Below, in pieces: positions 43,001-58,206 of a stretch of DNA of 64,000 nucleotides; the first letter of the stretch is position 1, and each line of letters opens with the position of its first letter. The stretch is from positions 200,232 through 264,231 of the forward strand of contig NZ_LT707059.1 of assembly GCF_900155735.1 (NCBI RefSeq), read 5' to 3'. This DNA is from Intestinibacillus massiliensis (lineage in GTDB: Bacteria > Bacillota > Clostridia > Oscillospirales > Butyricicoccaceae). The notes under the pieces are model-generated. The model was not told the origin of the DNA, did not search any database, and was given only the letters and a program-made list of their open reading frames with translations. Made by a program: the position numbers and the translations under genes.

Positions 43001-43840
43001 GCGGTTGAGAGCTTTTATGTAAGCGGGCGTTACGCCTATGTATTTGCGCGGAAGTTCTCCACCTATGCGATCTATTATGATACGTATACGGGCGGCGGGC
43101 ACAGTTCCGGCAACCACACTTCAAATAAGAAGCCGCAGGATAAAACCGATCCCATTGCCACCCCAGGTGCGACCGGCGCGGATCAGTGGCTGAACGTCCA
43201 GGAGCATATGGCTTACATTGAAGGCCGCTCCGACGGCTTGGTGCATCCCGAAGACAACATCACCCGGGCGGAGGTCGCCATGATTTTCTACCGGCTGCTC
43301 CGGGACGATGTGCGCGCCAAATATGAGGCCTCCAGCAACAGTTTCCCGGATGTGGCGGCGTCCGACTGGTATAACGAGGCCGTCTCCACCCTGACGCGCG
43401 CCGGCATCATCGCCGGGCGGACGGACGGCACCTTTGGTGCGGATTTGCCCATTACCCGGGCGGAATTTGCCGCCATCGCTTCCCGGTTCGCCAGCGAGCC
43501 TTATACCGGCGGCGACCTGTTCCGTGATACGGCCAACCATTGGGCAAGGGATGATATCAACCGCGCGGCCTCCTATGGCTGGGTCAACGGCGCCGGGGAT
43601 GGGGCTTTTGCCCCGGACCGAACCATCACCCGTGCCGAGGCCATTGTGATCATCAACCGTGTGCTTGGGCGACAGCCAGGATCGGAGGAAGATTTATTGC
43701 CCGGCATGAAGGCATGGCCGGACAACGCCGACCCGGGACAATGGTACTATCTGGCCATCCAGGAGGCCACGAACAGCCACAGCTTTGAGCGAAAGAAAAA
43801 TAGTATTTATGAAACCTGGACAGGGCTTGCAAACAAATGA
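31076..43840 (+). CDS. Giant SLH-anchored surface protein
   Basis: About 4,254 residues. Signal peptide (1 to about 33, ending AMA) and a Pro/Glu-rich N-terminal region are followed by three large modules starting near nt 32214, 33010 and 34627, each opening with LDFT, W-Y-G, FGGT and GWAWYG, then beta-helix-like strand repeats. InlB-type repeats (ending TGYTFNGW...YAQW) lie at about 36290-37980, a long array of YDG/MBG-like repeats at about 38270-41960, then a fibronectin-like and a carboxypeptidase-regulatory-like domain. Three SLH domains (about 43170-43780) bind secondary cell-wall polymer. ATG at 31076 overlaps the upstream stop with GAGGG six bases before; ATG 31070 is an alternative. 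Likely an adhesin or matrix protein. Confidence 0.93.
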   Translation: MRKRERNSSGKRVVSFWVALMMLGTCLPFPAMAAEGSIEIQAFEPLAETAAEQRVPLGTLQEDLLLPETLTAYVATPAAPVPPPVVEEENPAGSEPGEGAPAESAPTEAKPVETEPAETDGTLPPAPGDGGIKAVPIVAGWRASPAYDPDTAGTYVFTAILPQEYTLAEGITMPSVTIIVEDRDIVSGGQDVTAEGQDVVSGGQRALTLTQTVDDMEITLTAQAGVFPADARLRVEKIIETQKIEQIETAIQTALDASAPAPLDGDSEEAAKPKLLETVTFDIKVMGLDAEGREVELQPTLPEGMTAAEAVAVSFRNIELPAAGGGQTMEVYHVEDDLSAAEPVAAEVKADEGEITITPAHFSLYTLAQVNAAAPAAESVVLDFTRGAGGWNYGAAFGGTNTNSSSPEMGWAWYGTAADGYSAKTLVLSGLTFTTTNDNAIILPKGSTVVLADGSDNRVVSGTTAIRIAGEQGGTLTFKGGSGKLYAEARSNGIYVGTTTGGSSSIINIEGGHITAIATAGNGRGVYAYKNIASTSIYASVNIKGGTLYASGSFAQGWSSDVAKSGGAVVAGSGNSGITLGGNMRAVGSASENASIFSLEEVAIFKHYAGGNTSDVHNNLSCFKVTDGTPAMASPNADTVYVYQVQGFTLDFTAAQGAWTYGKAFGGTGANTDALNEAGWAWYGTAGDGYDANTLVMDGLFFETGSAMAMKLPANATVVVKGENRVASQYASNTSHTQGIYGGSSTGESNITFRGDGSLYVRGGQGMAGSDGGYNTTGLQIAGTLTLKENVSITAASGTVRSITVSSFTYGVDCKGLILQDNATLAAKSEDSGYLSTAVMIGAMGGEISGGKLTAIAGNATYASAAQSGSYGIRMLNGGDLAITGGIVTATAGNAAGVGASGGIEKRASSHGISQGVGNLTITGGVVTATAGDVTGTQNTSLDGYSLGILASATGKTAVIGGDAVVKATSGKVTSKDGVSYGLYMVTLNIGDTARVEIAAKSGKQVMGLRGNSLTISGNPTVTVSSEGTSGNYTRGINLANNLTVSGGALNVTATGSHATSDSTGIHVGNGGDADAIKISGGRVTVNCNGGAGGGKGIYAYYKTQMRVTGGIVYATGNTTAIRADTTTGGHTASITLNGMTAKGSPTYNTAEASLNNTATLSGGTQFVANGTEQKTVKITPATQTFTLDFTKSANAWNYGVPFGGTAVNSSSTDKGWAWYGAGGGTYAAKTLVLDGLDFTTSAATAITVPDGTTVVLKNSNRATSIYSGTINTHGVHCDGSLTIKGSGSLEVQGGSVTSYVDYYSIGIYTKKTLTIAETANVTAKCSAASRMARGVQCGLQSTTDADSYKGMLVVERGATLTADASASSNYGSYLYGVVIFAQSAKVGASVISGTVTAKSGNAPADKMSCSYAFYAGSDLTIDGGRVTATAGNTSHTGQYSCSSDGICVGGALTIQGDSVVAATGGNIPTAQTNDTGYGIVCGRAITIRDGARVTAKSTDASSGYGIHSTTNSITVALNGNGQIDCTAVTMAISTASDGGIMNLDGMELKGSTAYNAAESALTDASLRSSDKKTIVAGTAGTGTAVKTARIIGTGSPTAQGIKFYRAGYNSDDALILETTAISYYKKLSSDLYGSAYGGYYRTAANSGNWAPLLFSNRETAVQVIGIKEDGTSVSNPQANTGAKTMEYGGQAYYYSTDEAAVPAANAVLGPEDGAYLGVHADSKAAANDLLTKIPQYTITYDAGGGSGATLPTGHKKLAGLPFTIPAVTGLAKAGVSLTGWMDQDGHAYDLGGAITADKDLTLTAQYDTNKVTVTLNQNGGTSGTASVLATAGQMMPALGALPLKENCTFAGYYDAGGVQYYDQNGAPLRIYPLSGGPAKLTARWASGEGIFAGRYSQYQVFDCHRTPAYPSAGQSFRVFQFANPFTDSGLVKNGSKVTIGQMSSAQISGKIFYFKPSGNSSNPFILWFASSVEQADAGGGVQVSKAGKIYSLGAEGFLFTSTTGNDYGYFISMKQAFKPGEEITYKPTNPGPITQEEAENTPADPTPWEPDASYTVTFDSNGATVVATPSKISVRKPQSGSVTLGNLPASPARTGYTFNGWYTAKTGGSKFDAYQTPVTGNMTVYAQWVKATNTTTSISLYKDNAVWTGQAVKVQPVDASGNLTDAPISTTYASRTKTYNTASGAVSAPGSYAVLLGGTDTGVRFTHTANAGDDVEVMFYSVAYKANGGTCSFPAGSVARKGSTYNVLFTPAPAKDGYTFVGWTDRPAAQQPAANDGFRLYEQGGGFTSLEIAGTTTLIAVFKQPAPTVGDSTEDFTVTQPDTVDGMGSITLNTGHGDPGDYEYSTDGGLTWNPWPDGGTLEAGQGANVQIRRPAIGSDLMSDSVVVTINTAKPFDNLVTVTGYKGVYDGKAHGIGILKAGDASDATVTFYADDTYTTAIAEPTAKDVTIADGVDTPQTVYYAVSKDGYATRKGSATISISKAELIATYAGEVITFGQKPQLLVTVTGFVGGETAETATDYTAPTVTWPLNRNAASYQSAELTPAGGSAKNYNFKYVPGTLIVQYASMAGGVIAKGSVDTYNGNAHSISVTLSGDAANAQITYSTSQDGEYTSANPAFKDAGVYTVYYKVKKEGYQEITSSAQVVINRKAVSVAGVSVGTKPYDGNTSTANGSITLDGVVGNDDVTAKGTIVFTSKDVGSNKTVDVTGIALSGKAAGNYVLDSTTKSGVKTGAEITAKEVALTWENTGTRTYDGNASDVRATVTSGLVPGDVCQVIVAGGDKVNTGTYTATASLSNTNYTIQGNANTQSYTIEKATLTATYGGATVIYLDTIPDAAKTVSVTGFVNGETAASLGNDYTAPTVTLPDLTPGSDGTPAKQDITPADGSATNYEFAYVAGTFTVLSREFNVVVVKDYEGDYDGESHTLIVENKDTAVKPNEIKVQYSIDGTNWSEEVPARIEAGKTEVQFKVSAKGFDEQAGAATITIHPKKVTPTISASATPTRIYDGSVDAENQVKLGLTGVLDADKGFVTLNAGTVAFADKNVGEKKSVTAGSLTLTGTQEKNYVLAVTTVSGGADLGVGITPLTATLDWEDAGIRTYDGQPSDITASVTNCAGFDICTVTVSGGKEKDVGTHTATATALSNGNYSLPDAATKAYTINPAKLTAQFKDETVVFGNKPALEIAVTGFQGGEDATSAADYIAPTISTDPIPTNVTTHTISLTGGSAKNYTFELKTGTLTITKADMSGGVSSHGYSGVYDGKSHGITVNIPSGATVTYYTDGNHTNSSNNQFKDVTDGEITIYYKVEQPNYADVSGSAPIVITARRVTPSLQAGTAGSREYDGKLATTGTLALSGVVTGETLTASGSVAFTDPAAGKNKTVDITDITLSGGTADNYVLSTKELKGVATNAEIRPREAVLTWSGDTGLVYTGTEKSVSAAVSNLVPNDSCAVTVTGGAEQGAGEHIATATGLGNPNYRLPDPAPAKVYTIAPATLPAPYKGETIGAATSPKLEVEVTGFVNDESAANAAGYAAPTITGTIPTSKGTHELTPSGGEADNYTFTYVAGTLAITDNPINGVTAKGYEGLYDQKMHDGVTVSGLQEGDTVQYSTGEGENWTSDIPQVGPVGDTPIQVKVTRPGFEELVLKVTASVKSAPIIQLDKPLFDKTDLQKVTLGGSVQQGGYPIASQGFAYRKAGDTVWTPLNPGTAGSGKTTYRQTVNGLAAGAEYEVRLTATDVAGNTASETLLFKTQPKNPPTGAIEGSVEDPDKDAVITVTIEMGNVIVASQGGLHSGQHFTFTGLEDGEYNLVATDGTHKVTRMVTVKDGGTTKLEVVRVGTKQSVVKVEGDAPPVAVDKLDDLFHTDLYTKNNAAQAAINGSGTVEIRLTAAEAKATAEITKIKEKAADKAQGLLVDLSVSMIITPKDALSTVEPVPVTEELLKIAIPLPDEAQGKSGYQLFRYHDGQVDELRQIAASDTPAVESFYVSGRYAYVFARKFSTYAIYYDTYTGGGHSSGNHTSNKKPQDKTDPIATPGATGADQWLNVQEHMAYIEGRSDGLVHPEDNITRAEVAMIFYRLLRDDVRAKYEASSNSFPDVAASDWYNEAVSTLTRAGIIAGRTDGTFGADLPITRAEFAAIASRFASEPYTGGDLFRDTANHWARDDINRAASYGWVNGAGDGAFAPDRTITRAEAIVIINRVLGRQPGSEEDLLPGMKAWPDNADPGQWYYLAIQEATNSHSFERKKNSIYETWTGLANK

Positions 43841-43861
43841 GACGCGCGCCCTGTGATGCGG

Positions 43862-43921
43862 AGGGGGCTATGGCCCCCTTTCGCTCCAAGCCCATCTTCC
43901 TTTCAAGGTGGGTTTGGAGCG
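43862..43921 (+). terminator. Two successive hairpins after the giant gene
   Basis: Stem AGGGGGC/GCCCCCT (43862-43868 with 43873-43879) followed by TTC, then a second 15-bp stem with two G-T pairs (43882-43896 with 43907-43921). Neither has a long T run, so termination may be partial and the GGDEF gene could be expressed by read-through. Confidence 0.5.
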
Positions 43922-43997
43922 AAAAGCATTTCTATGGGAACCGGCTGTTGCGGGAAGCAAGGGCGGTAATTCATATCACAACTGTGAGGTGTACTCT

Positions 43998-45665
43998 ATG
44001 AGATCGATACAAACAAAGTTTATCGCATTGATCCTGAGCTGTGTCCTGCTCTCCGCGGGGGTGATCGGCGGCGCAGGCATCTTGAACGCCCAGCGGGTGG
44101 TCGATGGGGATTCCGCCAGGGTCATGAACCTCCTGTGCGAGGGGAAGGCGCTGGAACTGGATGCGCTCTTATCCCGGATTGAGCAGTCGGTAAAGACGTT
44201 ATCGGTCTATACGCTAGATGAGCTGGAAAGCATGGATCGCCTGAAAACCGATCCCGGTTATGTCGGCCGGTACACACAGAAACTGGAATCGGTGGCGGTA
44301 AACGCGGCGAATAATACGGAAGGCGCGCTGGCCGTCTATGTCCGTTTCAATCCGGAATTCACCCCGCCGACTTCCGGCCTCCTGTGGAGCAAAACGGAGC
44401 GCAGCGGCAGCTTCCAGCAGCTTACGCCGACCGACCTTTCCAGTTTTAGCCCCTCGGATACCGAGCATGTGGGTTGGTATTACATCCCCGTAAAAAATGG
44501 CCAGGCCATGTGGATGGAGCCATACTACAATCAGAATCTCAATGTGCAGATGATCTCCTACGTCATCCCGCTCTATCGGCAAGGCGAAACCGTGGGTGTG
44601 GTAGGGATGGATATTAATTTTGACGTGATCGAGCGGATGCTCGAGGGGATCCGGATTTATGACAGCGGCTATGCGTTCCTTGCTGATAACCAGGGCGTCA
44701 TCATGTACCATCAAGACCTTGCAATGGGGACGGCTATGGGCAGTGTGGACAAAAGCCTGCGCCCGCTGGTGGAGGAGTTGGGGAATGGGACTTCCGGCAG
44801 CACCCTGTATTCCTATGAGGGGAGCGGGGTGAAAAAGGAGCTGGCATTCCGCACCCTGCGGAATGGGATGCATCTGGCCGTCACCGCGCCTGTAAACGAG
44901 ATCAATTCCGGCCGCAACCGCCTTATCCTGCAAAACTGCGTGGCACTCCTGCTCATCTGCTGCCTCTCCGTGGGGCTCACGGCGGTATTTACCCGGCGGC
45001 TCGTCCGCCCGCTGAAGGAGCTCAATACGGCGGCCAAGAAAATCGCCGAAGGCGACCTGTCCGTCACCATCAGCACCCAGACCAAAGACGAAGTGGGCAC
45101 CCTGGCGGACAGCTTCCAGAAGACCGTGGAGCATTTGCAGCAGTATATCAGCTACATCAACGGCCTGGCCTACCGGGACGCCATGACCGGAGTGAAAAAC
45201 AAAACCGCATATCAAGAGGCGGAGCGGTTGATGGAGGATCGAATGCGCACTGGCCGCCCGGAATTTGCCGTGGTGGTGCTGGATATTAACGGCCTAAAGT
45301 ACATCAATGACACCTACGGCCATGACTTCGGCGATATGCTGATCGTGGATGCCTGTCGGCTCATCTGTAAAACGTTCAAGCACAGCCCGGTCTACCGGAT
45401 CGGCGGGGACGAATTTGCAGTGATCTTGGAAAATGATGACCTGAAAAGCTATCCGGTTCTGTTGGAAGACTTCGAAAAGGGAATGGCTGAACACAATCAG
45501 ACCGCGCGGCCGGACAGCCACCTTTCCATCGCCCGGGGGATCGCCGTGTATAACTCGCAGTCCGACCTGGTTTTTGCAAACGTGTTCAAGCGGGCGGATG
45601 ATGCGATGTATCAGAACAAAGCCGCGATAAAAGCACGGGAAAAGCATAGGAGCGAGACCCCGTAA
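43998..45665 (+). CDS. Cache-HAMP-GGDEF diguanylate cyclase
   Basis: A 555-residue membrane protein: membrane helix at about 8-30, an extracellular double-Cache-type sensor (about 31-300, with YYIPVKNGQAMWMEPYYNQ and VGMDINFDVI), second helix near 310-330, HAMP (RRLVRPLKELNTAAKKIAEGD), then GGDEF from AYRDAMTGVKNKTAY with an intact RIGGDEFAVI loop. It should make c-di-GMP in response to an external small ligand. The RxxD inhibitory site is absent (HSPV). ATG at 43998 has GAGGTG six bases upstream; longer starts run into the preceding hairpin. Confidence 0.94.
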   Translation: MRSIQTKFIALILSCVLLSAGVIGGAGILNAQRVVDGDSARVMNLLCEGKALELDALLSRIEQSVKTLSVYTLDELESMDRLKTDPGYVGRYTQKLESVAVNAANNTEGALAVYVRFNPEFTPPTSGLLWSKTERSGSFQQLTPTDLSSFSPSDTEHVGWYYIPVKNGQAMWMEPYYNQNLNVQMISYVIPLYRQGETVGVVGMDINFDVIERMLEGIRIYDSGYAFLADNQGVIMYHQDLAMGTAMGSVDKSLRPLVEELGNGTSGSTLYSYEGSGVKKELAFRTLRNGMHLAVTAPVNEINSGRNRLILQNCVALLLICCLSVGLTAVFTRRLVRPLKELNTAAKKIAEGDLSVTISTQTKDEVGTLADSFQKTVEHLQQYISYINGLAYRDAMTGVKNKTAYQEAERLMEDRMRTGRPEFAVVVLDINGLKYINDTYGHDFGDMLIVDACRLICKTFKHSPVYRIGGDEFAVILENDDLKSYPVLLEDFEKGMAEHNQTARPDSHLSIARGIAVYNSQSDLVFANVFKRADDAMYQNKAAIKAREKHRSETP

Positions 45666-45686
45666 ACTATCCCTAAGAAATACCGC

Positions 45687-45722
45687 AAAGGCCTGCTGCA
45701 GAAATACCTGCAACAGGCCTTT
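45687..45722 (+). terminator. Probable terminator after the Cache-GGDEF gene
   Basis: AAAGGCCTG/CAGGCCTTT outer stem and GCAG/CTGC inner stem (45687-45722) with a two-base internal mismatch. Only TTT follows, so strength is uncertain. Confidence 0.6.
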
Positions 45723-45861
45723 CGTGGGATATATGCCGCTTTGGAAGGGGGGGATCAGCCTAAACGCTGCTTACCACCGCAGCGGCAATGCTGGAAATGG
45801 CTGCACGGGGGATTCAATCAGGCGGATCCAATACAGAAGCCCAACATGTCATGTGAAACGG

Positions 45862-45917
45862 TTGCTATTTGTTCCTGATCTTGCTATACTGAATTATATA
45901 TGTACATGAACTATTGA
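45862..45917 (+). promoter_or_regulatory. Promoter with shared downstream operator-like motif (copy 1)
   Basis: TTGCTA (45862-45867), 17-base spacer, TATACT (45885-45890), then ATATATGTACATGAAC (about 45895-45910) around the expected transcription start. The same -35, spacing, -10 type and downstream motif recur at 50561-50616. It should drive the PAS hybrid kinase gene at 46005. The rest of the 339-base gap shows no gene. Confidence 0.75.
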
Positions 45918-46004
45918 GGGTTTGAAAGGGCGCATGCTCCTTTGTCTGAATCCATTCACCAAAAAAATGTTCATTGTGATTCGTTTAGGATAGGCGGTTA
46001 GATC

Positions 46005-48773
46005 ATGGATAATAAGTGTGTGGCGGGGCAGGATCGAGGGAATATAGAAAGCAGGTGCCCGGCAGCGGTGGATATGCTGAAAACGGGCATATTCTGCTGT
46101 CTGCTGGACGAAAATCTGACCTTTTGCTGGGGGAATACCAGCTTTTTCAGCAGTATCGGATATGCAAGGGAGGGCTTTTGCGCCAAATTCCATGACCTGC
46201 GGCAATACTATGCCGAAGCCCCTGGTGATTTCGCCGCCATCCGGCAGGCGGTGGAAAACGGCAGCCGCGAGATCGAGACGGCCATCCGCCTGCCCCTTAA
46301 AAATGGGGGATTTTCCTGGGCGCACCTGTATGGGACCATTGTGGAAGACCGCGCCGCGGGCGGGCGTGTGCTGCGGGCAGAGCTTGTCCCAATGGACGTG
46401 TTGGCCGCCGAAAAGGAAGGGCTGCAACGGCTTTATCAGCAAAAGCTCCAGTATTTCTACTTTATGCTGGACTCCTATGAGGGCAACGTCTATGTCAGCG
46501 ACATGGAGACCTATGAGCTGCTGTATCTGAACCAGCGCGCCTGCGATGTCCTGGGCATACCCGCCGTAAAGGCGTTGGGGCGGAAATGCTATGAAGTGAT
46601 CCAGGGGCGCACGTCCCCGTGCCCTTTCTGCACCAATAGCAAGCTGTGTGAAGAGGCCTTTTACGAGTGGGAATTTTCCAACCCGGTTTTGGAGCGCACT
46701 TTTATGATCAAGGACCGGGTCATCAACTGGGAGGGGCGCCGGGCGCGCCTGGAGCTGTCCCACGATATGTACAGCACGGAATACAAGCTGGCAAAAAAAG
46801 ACCAGGAGCGGGACGCGCTGATCCGCAGCGTGCCGGGCGGACTGGCAAGGGTGGACGGACGGGATATGCGGACGGTCCTTTGGTACAGCGGCAGCTTTTT
46901 GGAGTTGATTGGCTATACCAAGGAGCAATTCGAGGGGGAGCTGCACTCCCAATATGATTATGTACATCCGGACGACATTGGACACGTCGCCGATGTGATG
47001 CGGCAGTCTAGGGAAACCGGGAAACCTACGGCGGTGGAGAGCCGCATCGTCACACGGGCTGGGGACGTGAAAATCCTGATGGTGACGTACAGCTATGTCA
47101 GCGGGGAGGACAGCTGGGACGGCGTGCCCTCCTATTACAGCGTAGGCGTAGACGTGACGGCGGAGCGCAAGGAGCAGGCGCGGCAGCGGCAGGCGCTGGA
47201 AGACGCCTGCAAGGCGGCACAGGTCGCCAACGACGCCAAGACCAACTTCCTTTCCTCCATGTCCCACGATATCCGCACGCCTATGAACGCGATTATCGGC
47301 ATGTCGGTCATCGCCCAGGCGAACCTGGGATCCCCGGAAAAGATACAGGACTGCCTGAACAAGATCAACGTTTCCAGCCGGCATCTGCTGAGCCTCATCA
47401 ATGAGGTGCTGGACATGTCGAAAATCGAGAGCGGGAAAATCGACCTGCTCTCCGAGCGGGTCTCGTTGCCGGAGCTGATCGAGGACGTCATGGATGTGTT
47501 CCGGCCGCTGGCGGCGGGAAAGCACCAGGAACTGCGTATTAACGCCGACCACGTGCGGCATGAGGCGGTAGTGACGGATCAGAACCGGCTGCGGCAGGTG
47601 CTGGTGAACCTGCTCTCCAACGCGGTAAAATATACACCGGACGGCGGCAGCGTCGGATTGCGGATCCGCGAGGTACCGTCCTTTGCAAAAGGCCGGGGGC
47701 AGTATGAGTTTATTGTCACCGACAATGGGATCGGGATGTCGGAGGCATTTATCCCCCATATCTTTGACCCTTTCTCCCGGGCGGAGGAGACCAAGGCCAA
47801 ACAGATCCAGGGCACCGGGCTGGGCATGGCGATCACGCAAAATATTGTCCGTATGATGAACGGCACCATCGAGGTCAGAAGTACCTTGGGGAAGGGCAGC
47901 CAGTTCATTGTCGCCGTCTCCTTCGACCTGTGCGAGGAGAAGGAGGAGAACGACGAGGAGCTGTCCGGCCTGCCGGTACTGGTGGTGGACGACGACCAGA
48001 TCATCTGTGAAAGCGCGGCGGAAATCCTGGATGAACTGGGTATGCGGAGCAGCTGGGTGCTGTCGGGGAAGGAAGCGGTCCGCCGCGTGGTGGCCGCCCA
48101 TGAAGCACAGGACGGCTTTTTCTCCGTTATTCTGGACTGGAAGATGCCGGGGATGGACGGGCTCGAGACGCTCAAGGCCATCCGGAAAAATCTTGGCAGG
48201 GATGTGCCCATTATTATAGTTTCGGCCTATGACTATTCCGAGATTGAGGAGGAGTTCCGGCAGGCCGGGGCGGACGCCTTTATCACGAAACCGCTGTTTA
48301 AGTCTAAGATTGCCCATACCTTCCACCAGTTCTGCCGTAGTGGGCGCTCAGACGCCGCCGCGCTTCCCGCCGGGACGGCGACCGCCAGCATGGTGGGCAA
48401 ACGGGTTCTGCTCGTGGAGGACAACCAGATCAACCGCGAGATCGCGGCCGAGTTGCTGGCCATGCACGGGTTTCTCATTGATCCGGCGGAGAATGGCAGG
48501 ATCGCCGTGGATAAATTTGCGGCCTCGGCGCCCGGTACATACGACTGCATTTTAATGGACATCCAGATGCCGGTCATGGACGGCTACCAGGCGGCCGAGG
48601 CGATCCGGGCGCTGGGCAGGGGCGATGCGGCGACCATCCCCATCCTGGCGTTGACGGCCAACGCCTTCGCCACGGATATCGGGAAGGCGCACAGCGCCGG
48701 CATGAACGACCATGTGGCAAAGCCGATCGAATTGGATCGGCTGATGGAGACGCTCGAGAGATGGATCAAATAA
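46005..48773 (+). CDS. Cytoplasmic PAS hybrid histidine kinase with two receivers
   Basis: A 922-residue protein with no clear membrane segment. Three PAS-like regions lie in about 20-400; the second holds a Cys cluster (CPFCTNSKLC), possibly for metal or redox sensing. Then HisKA with phospho-His421 in SMSHDIRTP, HATPase_c (NLLSNAVKYTPDGG, DNGIGMSE, GTGLGM), and two receivers with phospho-Asp in LDWKMPGMDG and LMDIQMPVMDG. No DNA-binding domain is present, so phosphate must pass to another protein. Its promoter copies that of the REC-GGDEF-EAL gene, suggesting joint control. Confidence 0.94.
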   Translation: MDNKCVAGQDRGNIESRCPAAVDMLKTGIFCCLLDENLTFCWGNTSFFSSIGYAREGFCAKFHDLRQYYAEAPGDFAAIRQAVENGSREIETAIRLPLKNGGFSWAHLYGTIVEDRAAGGRVLRAELVPMDVLAAEKEGLQRLYQQKLQYFYFMLDSYEGNVYVSDMETYELLYLNQRACDVLGIPAVKALGRKCYEVIQGRTSPCPFCTNSKLCEEAFYEWEFSNPVLERTFMIKDRVINWEGRRARLELSHDMYSTEYKLAKKDQERDALIRSVPGGLARVDGRDMRTVLWYSGSFLELIGYTKEQFEGELHSQYDYVHPDDIGHVADVMRQSRETGKPTAVESRIVTRAGDVKILMVTYSYVSGEDSWDGVPSYYSVGVDVTAERKEQARQRQALEDACKAAQVANDAKTNFLSSMSHDIRTPMNAIIGMSVIAQANLGSPEKIQDCLNKINVSSRHLLSLINEVLDMSKIESGKIDLLSERVSLPELIEDVMDVFRPLAAGKHQELRINADHVRHEAVVTDQNRLRQVLVNLLSNAVKYTPDGGSVGLRIREVPSFAKGRGQYEFIVTDNGIGMSEAFIPHIFDPFSRAEETKAKQIQGTGLGMAITQNIVRMMNGTIEVRSTLGKGSQFIVAVSFDLCEEKEENDEELSGLPVLVVDDDQIICESAAEILDELGMRSSWVLSGKEAVRRVVAAHEAQDGFFSVILDWKMPGMDGLETLKAIRKNLGRDVPIIIVSAYDYSEIEEEFRQAGADAFITKPLFKSKIAHTFHQFCRSGRSDAAALPAGTATASMVGKRVLLVEDNQINREIAAELLAMHGFLIDPAENGRIAVDKFAASAPGTYDCILMDIQMPVMDGYQAAEAIRALGRGDAATIPILALTANAFATDIGKAHSAGMNDHVAKPIELDRLMETLERWIK

Positions 48774-48969
48774 GCCATTTCCCAATACGGACAGGCACGA
48801 TGCTTTTAGCCATGTCCGGCTTCACAAAAGAGGGATCGGCCGGTATCCAAAATAGACATTTTTTAATGCACCATCCGGCACCTGAAAAAGCGGCCTGACC
48901 GCCCTGCGTGGCCGGGTAATGGGGGAAGGCCATCCGTCCAACAGAATAGATTAAAAGCTCTGTACGGCA

Positions 48970-49008
48970 GAGAAAAAGCCCTGGGGATTTTCCGCAGGGC
49001 TTTTTCTC
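48970..49008. terminator. Bidirectional terminator between hybrid kinase and GntR-type genes
   Basis: A 14-bp stem (48970-48983 with 48995-49008) with A/T tracts at both bases. On the minus strand it overlaps the last two bases of the stop codon of the GntR-type gene. The 190 bases between it and the kinase stop show no other feature. Confidence 0.85.
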
Positions 49009-50461
49009 AGGTTTCGCTCTCTGTAGGGACAAATATGTTTTCCACCCCCGCAATGCCAAGCCGGGATAGGATATTCACGTTGCTGCGGAGTTCATAGAGC
49101 ATCAGCCCCTCCAACGTATTGGAAAACTGCGTGTAATCCGATTTTTCCAAGGCTCCGGTTAACGCGTCAAAATAAGGGTCGTAGGTCGCGTTGATGGCCT
49201 CATGGCCGCCTTTCATGCCCAGGAGCGCATAGCCCCAGAAGTGCTGCCGCAGCAGTTCGGCATATATGGTTCGTATCGCCTGATAGGGGGCGTGTTTTGT
49301 GATCAGGTCCAGGATGAAATAGGGCAGGGTCTCCCCGCGCCGCCACCGCTTGTGCGCCTTGAGTTCCTCGCACAGCCCCGCGGCCGAAGCGCCGTCAAGG
49401 GAGGAGAGCGTCAGGAGGGATACCTCCCGGCAGGACAGGGCGAACGCCTGGAGGGCTTCCGCCATATCCAATAGGCGCCGCTGGAGGACAGGGTTTGTAA
49501 AATCGCTGTTCTCTGTGACGCTGTCAAACGGCACAACCCGTGTACCCACATATTTTGCCGATTTCACCGCGCCAACGCTGCCCAGGAGTTCGAGCGCCCG
49601 GCGGGCGGTACTGAGCGAAACGCCGCGCTGCGTTGCAAGCGCCTGTTGGGAGGGGAGCAAGCTCCCGGCTGGATATACCCCGCGGCTGATCGCAATCAGA
49701 AGCTCCATGGCAAAGGTATAACAAAGCTGGCTTTTGGGGTAGGAGCTCCAGGCAAAAGCGATTTGCTGTTCCGGCGGTGGCATGGTGATTTTGGACGCAT
49801 AGAACCGGTTGAGGGCTAGGGACAGCTGATCCATCGCTTGATCCGCCGTAACGCGCAGCGCGGGCCAGTCCTTATGCCGGCAAAGTGCCAGCACCTCCGG
49901 CAGATAGTCGGCAAATTGGTCAAAGTACCACAAATTTTCTTTGATACTGAAAAAGGGGTCGTGCATAAACATAAAGACCTGCCAAACAAGGCGCATGAGC
50001 AGGGTGTTCCCGAGGGCGCTGTATTTTTGGTTGAGATGTTCCAGCATTGCGTAAGGCGCGGCAACGGCCTCCCCGCTGGAAAGCGATTCGATTGCCCGCA
50101 GCGTCTCCGCGGAAGCGTTTTTCAGGCCGGTCCACTGCGCGTTGCCGAACAGGGGGCGCATGGCGCTAGCCAAATCAATGATTGCGGTTTTGCGCAGCGC
50201 AAAGAAGGACTGGATAAACCGTTCCGTCTCTTGGCTGCCATAGTTTACCTTTACCGTAGCGCCAACATTTTTCGACAGGGAAATATACCCCTCCTCTTTG
50301 AGTTTTAGGTATGCGGTGCGGACGGTATCAATCGACACATGGAGCCGTATGCTGGTTTCTTCCATAGTGGGGAGCTTGTCCCCACAGCCGTAAGCGCCAA
50401 ATTGTATCTGGGTCAGTAAAAGGTTGTAGACGACTTTCCGTAATTCCGTGCTGTTTTCCAA
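49007..50461 (-). CDS. Transcriptional regulator with two GntR-type winged helices
   Basis: A 484-residue protein with an internal duplication of DNA-binding domains. The first GntR wHTH is at about residues 1-72 (GCGDKLPTMEETSIRLHVSIDT, LKEEGYISLSKNVGATV). The second is at about 250-318 (AGSLLPSQQALATQRGVSLSTARRALELLGSVGAV, KYVGTRV). The helical regions after each have no recognised enzyme or ligand fold. Two winged helices in one chain could let one protein bridge two half-sites or two operators. It is divergent to the REC-GGDEF-EAL gene and 3' to the hybrid kinase, whose promoters share a motif, making them candidate targets. Confidence 0.85.
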   Translation of the reverse strand: MENSTELRKVVYNLLLTQIQFGAYGCGDKLPTMEETSIRLHVSIDTVRTAYLKLKEEGYISLSKNVGATVKVNYGSQETERFIQSFFALRKTAIIDLASAMRPLFGNAQWTGLKNASAETLRAIESLSSGEAVAAPYAMLEHLNQKYSALGNTLLMRLVWQVFMFMHDPFFSIKENLWYFDQFADYLPEVLALCRHKDWPALRVTADQAMDQLSLALNRFYASKITMPPPEQQIAFAWSSYPKSQLCYTFAMELLIAISRGVYPAGSLLPSQQALATQRGVSLSTARRALELLGSVGAVKSAKYVGTRVVPFDSVTENSDFTNPVLQRRLLDMAEALQAFALSCREVSLLTLSSLDGASAAGLCEELKAHKRWRRGETLPYFILDLITKHAPYQAIRTIYAELLRQHFWGYALLGMKGGHEAINATYDPYFDALTGALEKSDYTQFSNTLEGLMLYELRSNVNILSRLGIAGVENIFVPTESET

Positions 50462-50507
50462 AACATGCCCCTCCAGTCTGCAGCGAAATCCAACTTGCGA
50501 TGGGTCT

Positions 50508-50536
50508 AGTATAGCATTTTTTACCCCACGTTTCCA
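50508..50536 (-). promoter_or_regulatory. Possible promoter of the double-GntR gene
   Basis: Leftward: TGGAAA (50536-50531), 17-base spacer, TATACT (50513-50508). The -35 match is poor. Confidence 0.45.
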
Positions 50537-50560
50537 CAGCCTTCTTACCGCAACGCAAGG

Positions 50561-50616
50561 TTGCTATTGGGAAAGCTATTTGATATAATTCAATATATAT
50601 GTATGTGAACAATTAT
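50561..50616 (+). promoter_or_regulatory. Promoter with shared downstream operator-like motif (copy 2)
   Basis: TTGCTA (50561-50566), 17-base spacer, TATAAT (50584-50589), then ATATATGTATGTGAAC (50595-50610). It matches copy 1 at 45862-45917 in -35, spacing and downstream motif, including GGTTGCTATT and TGAAC.ATT. It drives the gene at 50657. Confidence 0.78.
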
Positions 50617-50656
50617 CGTTTTCACGCCGGCGGGAAAAAAGAGGTGTAAATACGCA

Positions 50657-52321
50657 ATGGCCGCAAAAAGGAACATCCTGGTAGTAGAAGACAATATGCT
50701 AAACCGCAGCCTCTTACGTGAGATATTGAAGCCTGGCTACGACGTTGTGGAGGCGGAAAACGGGCAAGAGGCCCTTGCGCGTTTACACGAGTATGCGGGG
50801 CATTTTTCCCTTATCCTGCTGGATATTGTCATGCCCGTGATGGACGGGTATGCGTTTCTGGCCGCGGTCAAGGAGGATGCCGCATTCGCCTCTATCCCGG
50901 TTATTGTCACCACGCAGAACGACGCGGAGTCGGAAGAGGTGGCGGCGCTGTCCTGCGGCGCGGCCGATTTTGTGGCCAAGCCGTATAAGCCGCAGATCAT
51001 CCTGCACAGGGTCGCCAATATCATCCACCTGCGGGAGACGGCCGCCCTGGTCAACGAGTTCCAGTACGACCAGCTGACCGGGCTGTACAGCAAGGCCTTC
51101 TTCTGCCGGCAGGTGCGGGAGCGCCTTTTCCAGAACCCGGACAAGGGATATGACATTATTTGTTCAGATATCGTCAATTTCAAGCTGGTCAATGACATTT
51201 TCGGCATTGCAACGGGCGACCGGCTCCTGAGGACGATTGCGCAATGCTATCATGAAAATACCTATGGCGAAGGGATTTGCAGCCACTTCCACGCGGATCA
51301 GTTCGCCTGTATGGTCGAACACCATAGTGAATATACCGAAAATATGTTTCAGGATGTCTGCGCCCGGATTAACGAGATGTCCCAGATGCAGAATGTCGTG
51401 GTAAAGTGGGGGATCTATCATGTGAGGGATCGGACTGTCCCGGTGGAGCAGATGTGCGACCGCGCGCTGCTGGCAGCCCGGGGGATCAAAGGGCAGTATC
51501 AAAAGTATTTTGCCTATTATGACGATGTGCTCCGCAGCAAGCTGCTGCGGGAGCAGAAGATCGTCGACAGCATGGAACATGCTTTGGCGGACGGGCAGTT
51601 TGAAATTTACCTGCAGCCGAAATACCGGATAAAAGACAGCCGGATGGTTGGCGCCGAGGCGCTGGTCCGATGGAACCATCCGGAATGGGGGGTGCAGTCC
51701 CCGGCGGTATTTGTCCCGCTATTTGAGCGCAACGGGTTTATCACCCGGCTGGATCAATACGTCTGGGACAAGGCCTGCGCCGTCTTGCGGGACTGGGAGG
51801 GACGCGGCTTGCCCCCGCTGCCCATTTCGGTAAACGTATCCCGGGCGGACATCTATAATGTGGATTTGGCCAATATCCTTAAGGGGCTGATCCATCAATA
51901 CCAACTGCCGCCCTCGCGCCTCCACCTGGAAATCACGGAGAGCGCCTACACCGAAAACCCGCAGCAGATCATCGATACGGTAAGCCATATGCGGGAGATG
52001 GGATTTGTCATTGAAATGGACGATTTCGGGAGCGGCTATTCGTCTTTGCACATGCTCCACAAGATGCCGGTGGACGTCTTGAAGCTGGACATGCAATTCA
52101 TCCAGAGCGAGCCGGTAACGCCGGTCAACCAGGAGATCATGCGCTTTATCATGAACCTTGCGCACCTGATGGAACTGGGCGTGGTGGCGGAGGGCGTCGA
52201 GACGGCGGAGCAGCTGGAGCGCCTGCGCGAGATCGGCTGCGAATGTGTCCAGGGGTACTATTTTGCCAAACCGATGCCGGTGGAAGCCTTTGAGCGCCTA
52301 CGGGCGACGTGCAATGCATAA
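50657..52321 (+). CDS. REC-GGDEF(degenerate)-EAL c-di-GMP phosphodiesterase
   Basis: A 554-residue soluble response regulator. Receiver (about 5-125) has acid pocket EDN, phospho-Asp in [11 protein letters not shown] and Lys in VAKPY. The GGDEF domain is degenerate: the catalytic loop reads HADQF in place of GGDEF, so synthesis is unlikely. The EAL domain is complete: [31 protein letters not shown] and AEGVET, so it should hydrolyse c-di-GMP under phosphorylation control. AGAGGTG lies ten bases before the ATG. It may receive phosphate from the nearby hybrid kinases, which lack outputs of their own. Confidence 0.95.
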
Positions 52322-52722
52322 CAGCCGCAGCGGGTTCCGTAAGGCTATGGATATTTTTGAGACGGCCTATTTTCGGACGGGGTGCCGGGGCGTTGCGGCT
52401 ATACCGTGGGGGATCACAAACGGCTGAGGGGGACGCGGCACAGGCGGCATGCCCCGGAGACAGCACCATGATGGTGGAAAAATCCATATGGTGGCGGGCT
52501 TCAACATAGGGCAGGCATCCGGCTTTGGCTCACGTTCAAGCGTGGCAGATCGGGGGGCGGGACGGCTTCCCCTGTGCCAGTGTGTTATGGATACCTAGTG
52601 GCGTCGCCGTGTGGTAGGCAACGCGCAGTGAAATTATGGGACAATAAGGACCTGTGGGGAATAGCCGGCGGCAGGTATCCAGGCATGGTGGGCGTGCGGC
52701 TGGAATATGAGGAGTAAAAGAG
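52322..52722. other. Non-coding spacer, contents unexplained
   Basis: About 400 bases with no gene I can support and no recognised riboswitch. No promoter of good quality was found for the kinase gene at 52723, though one must be here or upstream. Short GC-rich pairings occur (for example near 52530-52570), but no structure is convincing. Confidence 0.4.
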
Positions 52723-55356
52723 ATGCACAAAACTGTCGAAGAAAAAGAGCAGTCCGTGATCCGGAGCCAGCGGATGAGCGCGATCAGCACAATAATCCTC
52801 ATCCTGTTAATGCTTTTCTATCTGATCATGACTGTCAATACCTCCGCCAGCCTGGCGGCGCAGACGGAAATCATTTCAGACCATCCCTTCGAGGTGGTGA
52901 TCGCCGCCGGGGATGTGAAGCTTTACGTCTCCGAGATGAGCCTGCGCACCGGACGGCTGGAGCGCTACTTCAGCCTTGATGACGTGGAATATGCCAGGGT
53001 CAATCTGGATGAACTGGATCGGCTGCTGGAGGCGCCGGTCGCCCGGATCGGGGAGCTGTATTTGGGTAACGCGGAAGACGTACAGGCGCTAAGGGAAACG
53101 CTGGCGCATTTGCAGACGGAGCGGGAAGCATATTTGGAGTACTGCGCCCGGCTTGATACCACGGGGGAGGAAATAGAGGCCTATGGGCAGGCGCATTTGC
53201 AGCCGCTCTATGACGAGGCGCTGCGCCAGACGGAAGGGATTATTAACGTTGCCCAGGCAAAAAAGGTGGGCTATGGAGAGACGGCGAATGCGCTGCGGCA
53301 GTCCAACCTGACCGCCTCTATCGTGCTGATGGCCTTGATGGTGGCCGTGCTGCTGGCGTCCCAATATGTCCTGCACCGTCAGCGGAAGGAACTGGTGTAC
53401 CGCAGCAAACTTTTTGATAGCCTGTCGCTGAGCATCGACGACGCGTTCATCATCCGCGACGCGGACACCGGCACCATCCGCTACCGCGGGCTTAACCTGG
53501 AACGTATATTGGGCGGGCAGATGGAGGATCTGGAAAGCCTTTACCAAGGCCTGCACGAGGAGGATGCGCAGGCCTTGCGGGAACAGGTCGGCGATCCCGG
53601 GTTTGCCTCGCCCTTTGAAAAGCTCGTGGAGTATACCAAGCCCAACAAGGAAAAATGTTGGATGCTCATCCGGGTCTACCGGGTGGAGGACACCAAAACG
53701 CCGCAGTTTATTACGGTTTTTTCCGACCGCACCGAGGAAGTGCGCGCCCGTCAGGTGCTTCAGGACGCCATGCTGACCGCGGAGCGCGCCAACACGGCGA
53801 AGAGCGATTTCCTATCCCGCATGAGCCATGAGATCCGTACCCCCCTTAACGCCATCATCGGCATGACTACGATTGCGGCCGCGTCGGTCAAGGATCCCGC
53901 CAGGGTGGAGGACTGCCTAGCGAAAATCACCTTCTCCTCCAAGCACCTGCTGATGCTGATCAACGACGTGCTGGATATGTCCAAAATTGAGAGCAGCAAG
54001 ATGATGCTGCAAAACGAGCCTTTTGACATTTTTGAACTTGTCAACGGGTACGTTTCCACCGTTTACGCCCAGGCCAAGGGCAAGGGTATCGAATTTGCGG
54101 AGGCCATGGAGGGCTTTGGGGAGGATACCGTCTTTATCGGCGACTCCCTGCGGCTGAACCAGATCCTCTTGAACCTCAGCTCCAACGCGGTAAAGTTTAC
54201 CGCCCCGGGCGGCAGCATCCGCCTGGATGTCTCCCGGCACAAAAGCGGAAATACGACCGACGTCCTACGGTTTATCCTCTCCGACACCGGCATCGGCATG
54301 ACGAAGGAGGCTGTCGAGCGCATCTTCCAGCCCTTTGAGCAGGCGGACGCATCCATCTCCAAACGCTTCGGAGGTACGGGCCTCGGCATGTCTATCACGA
54401 AAAACCTGGTTGCCCTGATGGGCGGCCAGATCCAGATCGAGAGCGAACCCGGCGTAGGGACTACGTGTATCGTCGACCTGCCCTTTGAAAAGGGCGGGGA
54501 GAGCCGTCTGCCCGAGCCTGATTTTGCGCAGCAAGGGCTGCGCGCGCTGATCGTGGACGACGAGCAGCAGGTCTGTGAACAGACCGCTGTGCTGCTTGAG
54601 AAAATCAAGATTGGCGCGGAGTGGCGCCTGTCCGGCGCCGAGGGCGTGGCGCGGGTGAAGGAGATGCACCGGGAGGGGCGGGATATCGACCTGTGCCTCA
54701 TCGACTGGAAGATGCCGGATATGGACGGCGTCGAGGTGACCCGCCGCATCCGCCGGGAGGTGGGGAATGATGTCCCGATTGTCATGATCTCGGCCTATGA
54801 CATCTCCGAGGTGGAAGAAGAGGCGAGGGCGGCGGGCGTCAACGGCTTCCTCCCCAAACCGCTTTACCGCTCGAGCGTCTATGCCACAATCAAGGCGGCG
54901 CTGGAGCACAAGGGCCAGCCAGCCGGCGCGGGCGAGGAAAAGCCCGCCGGCAAGCCGCTAGAGGGCTTCCACCTGCTGATGGCGGAGGATAACGCCCTCA
55001 ATCAGGAGATTGCGGCGACCCTGCTGCGCATGAGTGGGGCAGATGTGGACTGCGTGGAGGACGGCCAGCAGGCACTGGACGCTTTCCTTGCCTCCAAGCC
55101 CGGCGGCTATGATGCGATCCTGATGGATGTGCAGATGCCGGTCATGGATGGGCACGAGGCCACAAGGCGTATCCGTGCGTCAAACCACCCGCTGGCGCAC
55201 GCCATCCCCATCATCGCCACGACGGCCAACGCGTTTAGCGACGACATCTCCTCGGCGCTGGCGTCCGGGATGGACGCCCACGTCAGCAAGCCGCTGGATG
55301 TGGCGCAGCTTTGCAAAACGCTTGCGGATTGTATCCACAGGGGCGGCCACGGGTGA
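52723..55356 (+). CDS. Membrane hybrid histidine kinase with two receivers
   Basis: An 877-residue sensor. Membrane helices at about 20-42 and 193-215 bracket a helical extracellular domain of about 150 residues. A PAS-like region follows (about 225-345), then HisKA with phospho-His369 in SRMSHEIRTP, HATPase_c (NLSSNAVKFTAPGG, DTGIGM, GTGLGM), and two receivers with LIDWKMPDMDG and LMDVQMPVMDG. Its architecture and the KMP(D/G)MDG pair are like the kinase at 46005, so the two are probably paralogues. GAGGAG precedes the ATG. It is followed after 39 bases by another hybrid kinase. Confidence 0.94.
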   Translation: MHKTVEEKEQSVIRSQRMSAISTIILILLMLFYLIMTVNTSASLAAQTEIISDHPFEVVIAAGDVKLYVSEMSLRTGRLERYFSLDDVEYARVNLDELDRLLEAPVARIGELYLGNAEDVQALRETLAHLQTEREAYLEYCARLDTTGEEIEAYGQAHLQPLYDEALRQTEGIINVAQAKKVGYGETANALRQSNLTASIVLMALMVAVLLASQYVLHRQRKELVYRSKLFDSLSLSIDDAFIIRDADTGTIRYRGLNLERILGGQMEDLESLYQGLHEEDAQALREQVGDPGFASPFEKLVEYTKPNKEKCWMLIRVYRVEDTKTPQFITVFSDRTEEVRARQVLQDAMLTAERANTAKSDFLSRMSHEIRTPLNAIIGMTTIAAASVKDPARVEDCLAKITFSSKHLLMLINDVLDMSKIESSKMMLQNEPFDIFELVNGYVSTVYAQAKGKGIEFAEAMEGFGEDTVFIGDSLRLNQILLNLSSNAVKFTAPGGSIRLDVSRHKSGNTTDVLRFILSDTGIGMTKEAVERIFQPFEQADASISKRFGGTGLGMSITKNLVALMGGQIQIESEPGVGTTCIVDLPFEKGGESRLPEPDFAQQGLRALIVDDEQQVCEQTAVLLEKIKIGAEWRLSGAEGVARVKEMHREGRDIDLCLIDWKMPDMDGVEVTRRIRREVGNDVPIVMISAYDISEVEEEARAAGVNGFLPKPLYRSSVYATIKAALEHKGQPAGAGEEKPAGKPLEGFHLLMAEDNALNQEIAATLLRMSGADVDCVEDGQQALDAFLASKPGGYDAILMDVQMPVMDGHEATRRIRASNHPLAHAIPIIATTANAFSDDISSALASGMDAHVSKPLDVAQLCKTLADCIHRGGHG

Positions 55357-55395
55357 ACGGGCGCCGCTGACCCGCTTAAAGGAGTACAGACGACC

Positions 55396-58206
55396 ATGCG
55401 AAAACGACTGAAAAACTGGATGAGGAGGGGGATCGCCGCGCTCCTGATGATCCCCCTGGCTGCCGTGCCTGCTGCCGGTGCGGCAGCAGGGGGGCAGGGG
55501 TCACGCGTGCTCCGCGTCCCGTTCCCGCAGGTCGCGGGGCTGACCGAGACGGCGGAGGACGGCAGCCGCCAGGGGCTGGTGGTGGATTACCTGAATGAGA
55601 TCGCCAAATACACCGGCTGGGAATACGAATACATCGACACCGACGGCGACCATATGATTGAGGAATTCCTAGATGGCAAGTACGATCTGATGGGGGGCAA
55701 CTATTATTCCCCTGGCTTTGAGCAATACTTTGCCTATCCGGATTACAACATCGGGTACAACAAATCGGTCCTTTTGGCCAGGCTGGATGACAGCAGCATT
55801 AACAGCTACGACCTGCGCAGCCTGGACGGCAAGACCATCGGCGTGTACGAGCGGGCGGAGGAAAACATCCGGCGGCTGCGCGAGTTCCTGTCGATGCACA
55901 ACTTGGATTGTAAAATCCGTACCTATGCCTATGAGCAGCTCCCGGCGGACGGGAAGCTCTACCCCTATCTGGCGAGCGGAGAGATAGACCTGCTGCTTGG
56001 GAATGGGTTTGAAAACCCGGAAGGCTTCCGCGTCGTCGCCGCTTTTGACTCGCAGCCCTATTATATTGTGACCAACGTGGGCAACCAGGAGGTTTTGGAC
56101 GGGCTGAACATGGCCTTGGAAAGGATCGCGGACGCGAACCCGAACTTCAGCGTGGAGCGGTATTCGGCGCATTTCCAGGATCAGAGCGCCATTGACATCC
56201 GGCTCAATGAAGCGGAGCGGGATTATATCGAGGGGCGGGGCGCCATCACCGTGGCGGTTCCTGAAAGTTACCATCCCCTGTTTTGCCTCAATTCGCCGGA
56301 GAACATCCATGATGGCATTGTACCCGACGTCCTTGGCAAGGTGTCGGAGTTTACGGGGCTCGGCTTTACTTATGTTTATGCAGATACTTACAGCGAAGCG
56401 GTCCGCATGTTGCAGCAGGGGGAGGCGGAACTGCTCTGCTTTTATATGGGGTCGGAGGAGGAATCGGTCCGGCAGGGCGTGACTATCACGTCCCCCTATG
56501 CGGCTCTCAACAATATTGTGGTGCGCAACAAAGCAGCAACCTATCCGGACGAAGGCCTGGTTTGCGCCGTCGTCGAAGGGCAGCCGCTGCCCACCGGGAT
56601 TACGGCCGCCGAGGTGCGGATATATCCCACAATTACCGACGCCCTGATCGCGGTGAACAGTGGCGAGGCGGATTTTACCTATGGCCTGGCCAGCCGGATG
56701 GAGTGGGATATCCAGCGCTACCATTTCTCCAACCTGGTGCCCGTGACCCTGGTCAACGACCGCAGCAATATCGGTTTTGCGCTCAGACGGCCGGCCGACC
56801 CTGACCTGCTGACCATCCTCAACAAGGCCATCAACAGCCTTTCTTCCCAGGAGCGCGCCGCAATCCTGGATCGGAACATGGTCTCCATTGGTACCAACAG
56901 TCTCTCGCTGATGGAGCTTATCTACGCCAACCCTATGACCTTCATCGCCGTGCTCTCCCTCTTCCTGCTGGTTCTGGTGGCAGCCGTGCTGGGCATTTAC
57001 CGCGCCCGTATGCGGGCCGCCCTCATGCAGAACAACCTGGAAAAAGCAGAGGCGGAGAGCCGTGCCAAGGGGGAGTTTCTGTCCCGTATGAGCCATGAGC
57101 TCCGCACCCCCATGAACGCCGTGGTGGGTCTCGCAGACCTCACCAGCATGATGGAAGGGACGCCGGCCGACGTGCAGGAGAACCTGTCGAAGCTCCGTGC
57201 TTCCTCCAACTATATGCTCGGCCTAATCAACGACATCCTGGACATGAGCCGCATCGACAGCGGGAAGCTGATCCTCGCCCGCGAACCCTTCTCCCTGGAA
57301 CGTATGTTGGATGAAATCCAGTCGATGATGGCGCCTGAAGCCCAGCGGCGTGGGCTGACGTATTCGCTACAAAAGGAAATTGTCCACTGCGGCTTGGCCG
57401 GCGATGCCATCCGTTTACGGCAGGTGCTCACAAACCTGCTGTCCAACTCCTTTAAATTCACCCCGGCCGGAGGATCGGTCCTTCTGCGCGTAACGGAGGA
57501 TGCCGCATCGGACACGGCGGCCACCTTTACGTTCCAGGTGCGGGATACGGGCACGGGCATCTCACCGGAAGACCAAGGACGTATTTTCGAGAGCTTTGAG
57601 CAGGTTGGCACCAGCCACGCCAAGAGCCAGGGGACTGGCCTTGGCCTGCCCATCAGCAGCAGCATCGTCCAGAAGATGGGCGGCGAGTTGCGCGTCAACA
57701 GCCAGCCTGGCCAGGGCAGCGTGTTCTTTTTTACCGTTACCCTGCTGCTGGGCGATCCCGGGGTACCCCCTGCGGGCGGATGGGAAGGGCAGCCGGAGGG
57801 GATGCTGCTGGACGGCATCCATATTCTCCTGGCGGAGGATAACGACCTCAACGCCGAGATTGCGGCGCAGCTTTTGGAGATCCGGGGCGCAAAAGTATGC
57901 CGGAGCGCGGATGGCCGCCAGGCGCTGGAGCGGTTTTCAGAGAGCCAGTTGGGCGAGTTCCAGGCAATCCTGATGGACATTCAGATGCCCGGGATGAACG
58001 GCTTGGATGCCGCGCGCGCCATCCGGGCGCTGACACGGCCGGACGCGGCCACCATCCCCATCGTGGCCATGACGGCCAACACCTTCAAGGAGGATGTGGA
58101 CGCGGCGATGGCCGCCGGTATGGACGGTTTCGTCCCCAAGCCGCTGGATGTGAACTACCTTTACCGCCTGCTGGACGATTTGTTACATAGCGGCGTTTCA
58201 AGGTGA
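55396..58206 (+). CDS. Hybrid histidine kinase with tandem SBP_bac_3 sensor domains
   Basis: A 936-residue BvgS/EvgS-type sensor. A signal peptide (1-30) leads to two extracellular solute-binding (Venus flytrap) domains: about 38-270 (RVLRVPFPQVAGLTE, KTIGVYERAEENIRR) and 280-500 (AITVAVPESYHPLF, DVLGKVSEFTGLGF). A membrane helix follows at about 515-535, then HisKA with phospho-His567 in SRMSHELRTP, HATPase_c (NLLSNSFKFTPAGG, DTGTGIS, GTGLGL) and one receiver with LMDIQMPGMNG. It lacks the second receiver of its two neighbours. The ligand may be an amino acid or similar small solute. AAAGGAG lies 11 bases before the ATG. Confidence 0.95.
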   Translation: MRKRLKNWMRRGIAALLMIPLAAVPAAGAAAGGQGSRVLRVPFPQVAGLTETAEDGSRQGLVVDYLNEIAKYTGWEYEYIDTDGDHMIEEFLDGKYDLMGGNYYSPGFEQYFAYPDYNIGYNKSVLLARLDDSSINSYDLRSLDGKTIGVYERAEENIRRLREFLSMHNLDCKIRTYAYEQLPADGKLYPYLASGEIDLLLGNGFENPEGFRVVAAFDSQPYYIVTNVGNQEVLDGLNMALERIADANPNFSVERYSAHFQDQSAIDIRLNEAERDYIEGRGAITVAVPESYHPLFCLNSPENIHDGIVPDVLGKVSEFTGLGFTYVYADTYSEAVRMLQQGEAELLCFYMGSEEESVRQGVTITSPYAALNNIVVRNKAATYPDEGLVCAVVEGQPLPTGITAAEVRIYPTITDALIAVNSGEADFTYGLASRMEWDIQRYHFSNLVPVTLVNDRSNIGFALRRPADPDLLTILNKAINSLSSQERAAILDRNMVSIGTNSLSLMELIYANPMTFIAVLSLFLLVLVAAVLGIYRARMRAALMQNNLEKAEAESRAKGEFLSRMSHELRTPMNAVVGLADLTSMMEGTPADVQENLSKLRASSNYMLGLINDILDMSRIDSGKLILAREPFSLERMLDEIQSMMAPEAQRRGLTYSLQKEIVHCGLAGDAIRLRQVLTNLLSNSFKFTPAGGSVLLRVTEDAASDTAATFTFQVRDTGTGISPEDQGRIFESFEQVGTSHAKSQGTGLGLPISSSIVQKMGGELRVNSQPGQGSVFFFTVTLLLGDPGVPPAGGWEGQPEGMLLDGIHILLAEDNDLNAEIAAQLLEIRGAKVCRSADGRQALERFSESQLGEFQAILMDIQMPGMNGLDAARAIRALTRPDAATIPIVAMTANTFKEDVDAAMAAGMDGFVPKPLDVNYLYRLLDDLLHSGVSR

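Follow-up and report, generated by a model that had tools for sequence, protein, structure and literature searches.

Described repressors of the GntR/FadR subfamily, such as FadR, DhdR, VanR, McbR and PmiR, combine a winged helix with an all-helical effector domain, which in this subfamily is C-terminal and has six or seven helices. Operators of this subfamily follow TKGT-N2-3-ACMA, i.e., a GT-N2-3-AC spacing, and those of GntR/HutC follow GT-N4-AC; members with direct-repeat or non-symmetric sites also exist, and NanR, FarR and NagQ are a precedent for non-palindromic GntR sites (PMC4494728). AraR of Bacillus subtilis has the AT-rich consensus At(T/A)tGTaCGTAcaa(A/T)T (PMC4218819). It carries a LacI-type sensor domain, its operator is symmetric, and it controls sugar use, as does TreR of the same species. 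Known members of the NanR, FarR and NagQ type are single-unit proteins acting on metabolic genes. Among open-licence papers, we found nothing relevant on double or tandem GntR regulators or on GntR control of hybrid kinases. The 64-kb window, i.e., the whole stretch of DNA analyzed here, holds a double-GntR gene between two promoters of signalling genes that share an operator-like element, and the double-GntR protein probably controls both.

The regulator is an internally duplicated GntR protein with two winged helices and two helical domains, the second of which looks FadR-like. The GntR family (PF00392) passes its gathering score, with a whole-protein E of 3.9e-22 and two matching stretches. 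Aligning one half of the protein with the other gives a probability of 97.6% and E 2.8e-12, mainly through the winged helices, which resemble AraR and other GntR domains in a fold search. In the predicted model, residues 326-468 superpose on the effector domains of DhdR (3.2 Å over 140 residues) and FadR (2.8 Å over 138); the model is moderate (mean pLDDT 59), with the first helical domain (~77-244) below 50 and not interpretable. No Pfam effector domain was matched in the protein, neither the UTRA domain of GntR/HutC nor the aminotransferase-like PLP domain of GntR/MocR. NCBIfam MocR-type matches cover the N-terminal winged-helix region only, and the best NCBIfam match over wHTH2 is TreR. Judging by this model, the protein would share the winged helix and all-helical effector domain of the FadR-subfamily repressors; unlike them, it fuses two such units in one chain and has no Pfam effector domain. 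It follows no new principle of regulation.

The conserved element, TGYAnnTGAACA, has GT and AC six bases apart and is no clean palindrome. Assuming that it is the operator, it follows neither the GntR/FadR nor the GntR/HutC spacing, and in this it is again unlike the FadR subfamily. The AT-rich AraR consensus resembles ATGTAnnTGAACAAT, but AraR differs in its sensor domain and in the symmetry of its operator, and both AraR and TreR differ in not controlling signalling genes. Unlike NanR, FarR and NagQ, the regulator here is double-unit and its putative targets are signalling genes.

The features of the locus are collected in Table 1. The kinase and regulator genes are convergent, and the regulator and phosphodiesterase genes are divergent. 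The EAL domain of target 2 is recognized by PF00563 (E 1.7e-67), with the EAL, DDFG and other motifs present in the translation. Since its GGDEF motif is degenerate (HADQF) and its EAL and metal-binding motifs look intact, the product is probably a c-di-GMP phosphodiesterase. Of the two further hybrid kinases downstream, the one at 52723-55356 is conserved in all four orthologous loci described below and the one at 55396-58206 is found in full only in Clostridium sp. D33t1 (L044); neither has an operator copy of its own. A Cache-HAMP-GGDEF diguanylate cyclase with an intact GGDEF motif (43908-45665) precedes the kinase, so the cluster has both c-di-GMP-making and c-di-GMP-breaking enzymes. Directly upstream of this c-di-GMP/kinase cluster lies a 4256-aa surface-type protein (31070-43840) that carries repeats and ends in an S-layer-homology-like C-terminus; it may be an output of the pathway.

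Table 1. Genes, protein domains and promoter elements of the double-GntR locus (window positions; residues for protein domains).
Feature	Position	Strand	Evidence
Target 1, PAS-HisKA-HATPase-REC-REC hybrid histidine kinase	46005..48773	+	Pfam
Double-GntR regulator, 484 aa	49007..50461	-	Pfam, two GntR stretches
Regulator domains: wHTH1; helical region; wHTH2; FadR-like helical domain	~5-75; between the winged helices; ~243-315; ~323-468		
Target 2, REC-GGDEF-EAL protein	50657..52321	+	Pfam; motifs read in translation
Two further hybrid kinases downstream (52723-55356, 55396-58206)	52723..58206	+	Pfam, ortholog comparison
Left site: GGTTGCTATT; -10 TATACT; ATATATGTACATGAAC, then TATT	45860-45869; 45885-45890; 45896-45911		
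Right site: GGTTGCTATT; TATAAT; ATATATGTATGTGAAC, then AATT	50559-50568; 50584-50589; 50595-50610		
Kinase promoter TTGCTATT-N12-TGCTATACT, sigma-A-like -35 and extended -10	45862..45890	+	Sequence, cross-species identity
Operator-like element ATATATGTACATGAACTATT, kinase side; TGTA from ~+5	45896..45915	+	Sequence, conservation in 4 species
Phosphodiesterase promoter TTGCTATT-N12-TGATATAAT	50561..50589	+	Sequence, conservation
Operator-like element ATATATGTATGTGAACAATT, phosphodiesterase side	50595..50614	+	Sequence, conservation
Regulator's own promoter TGTGGAAAC...AAAAAATGCTATACT	50508..50538	-	Upstream sequences compared by eye

Both sites in the window, at 45862 and 50561, read TTGCTATT-N12-TGnTATAnT, five bases and then ATATATGTAnnTGAAC. 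Taking TTGCTA as the -35, the spacer has 17 bases in each case, and both have an extended -10 (TGnTATAnT). With the start site taken as seven bases past the -10, the operator spans approximately the first twenty transcribed bases and TGYA begins at ~+5 to +7. A preliminary description of this DNA had reported the shared -35, 17-base spacer, TATA(C/A)T and operator-like motif at these two positions, which proved exact on re-reading; it had also named a PAS hybrid kinase and a REC-GGDEF-EAL gene behind the sites, correctly according to Pfam, and placed the double-GntR gene between them and divergent to the second target, in agreement with the gene layout. The regulator's own promoter is kept in orthologs as TRTAGAAAC...AAAAATGnTATACT, and it contains no operator copy (upstream sequences compared by eye). 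In the window (50539-50560) and in the orthologous loci, the divergent promoters almost abut, and a loosely conserved CGnCAAA-like block separates their -35 boxes.

Searches of the whole 64-kb window with the promoter pattern and with the operator pattern both matched these two places and no others, against ~0.4-0.6 matches expected even with two to three mismatches. The preliminary description had proposed a motif search of the whole genome, which we ran as pattern searches: the full module has two copies in 2.84 Mb, the same with three mismatches, and none in the reversed control. The idea that the motif is common across the genome, at unrelated promoters, was rejected, the full module occurring twice only and the operator part having no additional match within one mismatch; with two mismatches the latter gives nine genome matches vs. 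ten in reversed controls. The -35/-10 part alone, with two mismatches, is found at ~30 places, as expected of ordinary promoters, and therefore the specific signal is the combination of promoter and operator.

One scan of named genomes gave four regulator orthologs of 65-74% identity: in Clostridium sp. D33t1 (L044, 74%), Bacilliculturomica massiliensis (L045, 68%), Neglectibacter timonensis (L046, 69%) and a Clostridia MAG (L047, 65%). The conserved site of the divergent region between regulator and phosphodiesterase in the window recurs in all four loci, and L045, L046 and L047 have the module before the kinase ortholog as well. Whole-genome counts are two modules each in G000, G779, G780 and G781 and one in G778 (zero in reversed controls), all of them beside the double-GntR gene, and the five genomes hold no further operator copy with one mismatch allowed. 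In the divergent position, L045 and L046 have the phosphodiesterase ortholog; in L047 no phosphodiesterase was found. In L044, only the first 41 phosphodiesterase residues are recognizable and a kinase remnant of 66 residues lies beside the regulator; the genome keeps a single module, the site of the decayed kinase being lost and the divergent one kept. These decayed fragments occupy 9431-9804 and 12084-12281 of L044, where the phosphodiesterase start is followed by kinase-type REC sequence in another frame.

Of 394 genomes of the order, four had regulator homologs (E below 1e-20); the same four, out of 375, had homologs of the kinase sensor part. The full pattern matched six genomes of the order, two of which hold the orthologous locus; the matches in G084, G151, G331 and G139 were set aside as off-target, each without the TGAAC half. 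At one of these off-target loci, L055, the site lies at the 5′ end of a 489-aa reading frame resembling a membrane transporter. The other two of the four genomes with a regulator homolog, G123 and G349, have more distant regulators (40-49%), and their promoters keep TTGCTATT-N12-TGCTATACT or a near form with the operator drifted. G349 also has two kinase homologs (65% and 52%) that are not linked to a regulator homolog, both with ordinary -10 boxes and both without the operator. In the L048/L071 paralogs (48-49% identity) the promoter part is kept and the operator is degenerate. More distant double-GntR paralogs give weak operator matches (best p ~0.02-0.06) or, in several cases, none, and we do not claim an operator in the remote paralogs L049, L050 and L072-L078. 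At L073 (10524-10563), a 40%-identity double-GntR gene is accompanied by GTATATAAACAAGGTGGATGTAAACAAGGTGG, which forms a tandem repeat where the operator would lie, ahead of genes for a chemoreceptor and a hybrid kinase.

Conservation is confined to short blocks. In an alignment of kinase promoters from four species, mean pairwise identity is 94% in the -35, 91% in the extended -10 and 81% in the operator, vs. 24% upstream, 39% in the spacer, 34% between -10 and operator, and 36% downstream. The three blocks reach 96%, 82% and 82% at the divergent promoters, with 55% upstream, where part of the stretch is the regulator's own promoter, and 40% downstream. Because its gap to the -10 varies by two bases among sites, the operator appears from these alignments to be an element separate from the promoter. 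The conservation of the -35 block exceeds the need of plain sigma-A recognition, which a repressor model does not account for.

Operator and regulator also vary together. At operator position 8, the window and L045 have T in each of their two copies and L044 has it in its single copy; only L046 and L047 have C (TGTA to TGCA), again in both copies. Nine regulator positions are common to L046 and L047 against a residue shared by the other three species, six of them in wHTH1, including V47A, which falls in the recognition helix, and T32N/M33I, where the preceding helix starts. As a control, the other nine two-vs.-three splits of the five species give 23 such positions, a single one in wHTH1 (6/9 vs. 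1/23, hypergeometric P 6e-4). The changed residues are neighbors of the positions given as base-contacting in FadR and AraR (PMC4494728) but do not coincide with them, with FadR aligned by eye. The tree allows L046 and L047 to be a single lineage, and the co-variation, drawn from five species, may then be one event; even so, a single event would have changed both sites and the DNA-binding domain.

Most likely, the double-GntR protein binds the shared site just past the start. Three observations point to it: the module lies beside regulator orthologs only (five species), paired site changes accompany wHTH1, and the operator is absent at kinase homologs unlinked to the regulator. The same evidence supports the preliminary suggestion that this regulator controls both promoters, which we consider probable, and most likely as a repressor, because the operator sits just downstream of the -10. 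We hypothesize that sigma-A recognizes both promoters (TTGCTA-17-TATAnT, extended -10) and that a single operator, AWATATGYAnnTGAACAATT, covers the first transcribed bases of each. The dedicated local regulator encoded between them would bind this operator at both promoters and block promoter binding or clearance. Release would come from a ligand of its helical domains, leading to joint production of the hybrid kinase and the REC-EAL phosphodiesterase. Given this shared control and the REC domain of the phosphodiesterase, the kinase may then phosphorylate the phosphodiesterase at that domain. A chain with two unlike DNA-binding domains would be a good match for an asymmetric site, in which each domain would read one half and wHTH1 the TGYA half.

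It is possible, although unlikely, that the double-GntR protein binds both sites but activates, or loops between them across 4.7 kb, rather than repressing locally. The -35 TTGCTA departs from TTGACA within an unusually conserved block, and a chain with two DNA-binding domains might connect two sites; on the other hand, the operator has the position expected of a repressor, the inter-site distance is not constant among orthologs and one of the genomes carries one site only. A slightly smaller chance goes to another transcription factor, e.g., a response regulator downstream of the local kinases, reading the element as a true operator. We infer GntR binding for an operator without standard GntR spacing, which leaves room for such a factor, but the module goes with the regulator gene rather than with kinase homologs in general, the co-variation is located in the regulator's wHTH1, and no other DNA-binding gene was seen to be common to the orthologous loci in BLAST against the window proteins only.

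Two further readings do without DNA binding by a shared regulator, and we regard both as very improbable. The element is mostly transcribed, lying approximately at the start site, and could act in RNA as a 5′ leader bound by a protein or small RNA. Identity nevertheless drops to 36-40% directly downstream of it and its co-variation partner is a DNA-binding domain; a riboswitch or leader RNA was rejected, with no Rfam match at gathering score in 43800-53000. Least probable of all is that copying or recombination made the promoters alike. High local similarity inside one genome speaks for such an origin; yet the bases between -35 and -10 are unrelated in the window (1/11 shared; 4-5/11 in other species), the gap from -10 to operator is not the same at all sites, and several families of Clostridia retain the blocks.

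The placing of the double-GntR gene beside a hybrid kinase may belong to a wider habit. More distant double-GntR genes mostly adjoin hybrid kinases as well, and in this genome all three double-GntR genes adjoin a HisKA gene, where chance would place one within 3 kb at no more than ~6% of positions. Hybrid histidine kinases adjoin distant double-GntR genes (18-27% identity) at L049, L050, L051, L074, L077 and L078; at the exception, L076, no kinase neighbor was recognized by BLAST against the window proteins. This neighborhood pattern suggests that the pairing of double-GntR genes with hybrid kinases is family-wide. We tentatively propose, as a possibility short of an expectation, that double-GntR proteins are a distinct class of single-chain, internally duplicated regulators in Clostridia, whose unlike DNA-binding domains read the halves of an asymmetric operator and which, habitually paired with hybrid kinases, may serve as one-component sensors dosing a two-component/c-di-GMP pathway.

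Known regulators or targets are mostly lacking for the hybrid kinases and c-di-GMP enzymes of uncultured and little-studied Clostridia. Here, conservation joins a predicted operator, a regulator and two targets, and the predicted two-promoter regulon is small enough for full testing. If the reading of one half-site per domain is true, it would also show a route by which a GntR dimer turns into one polypeptide chain whose site is asymmetric.
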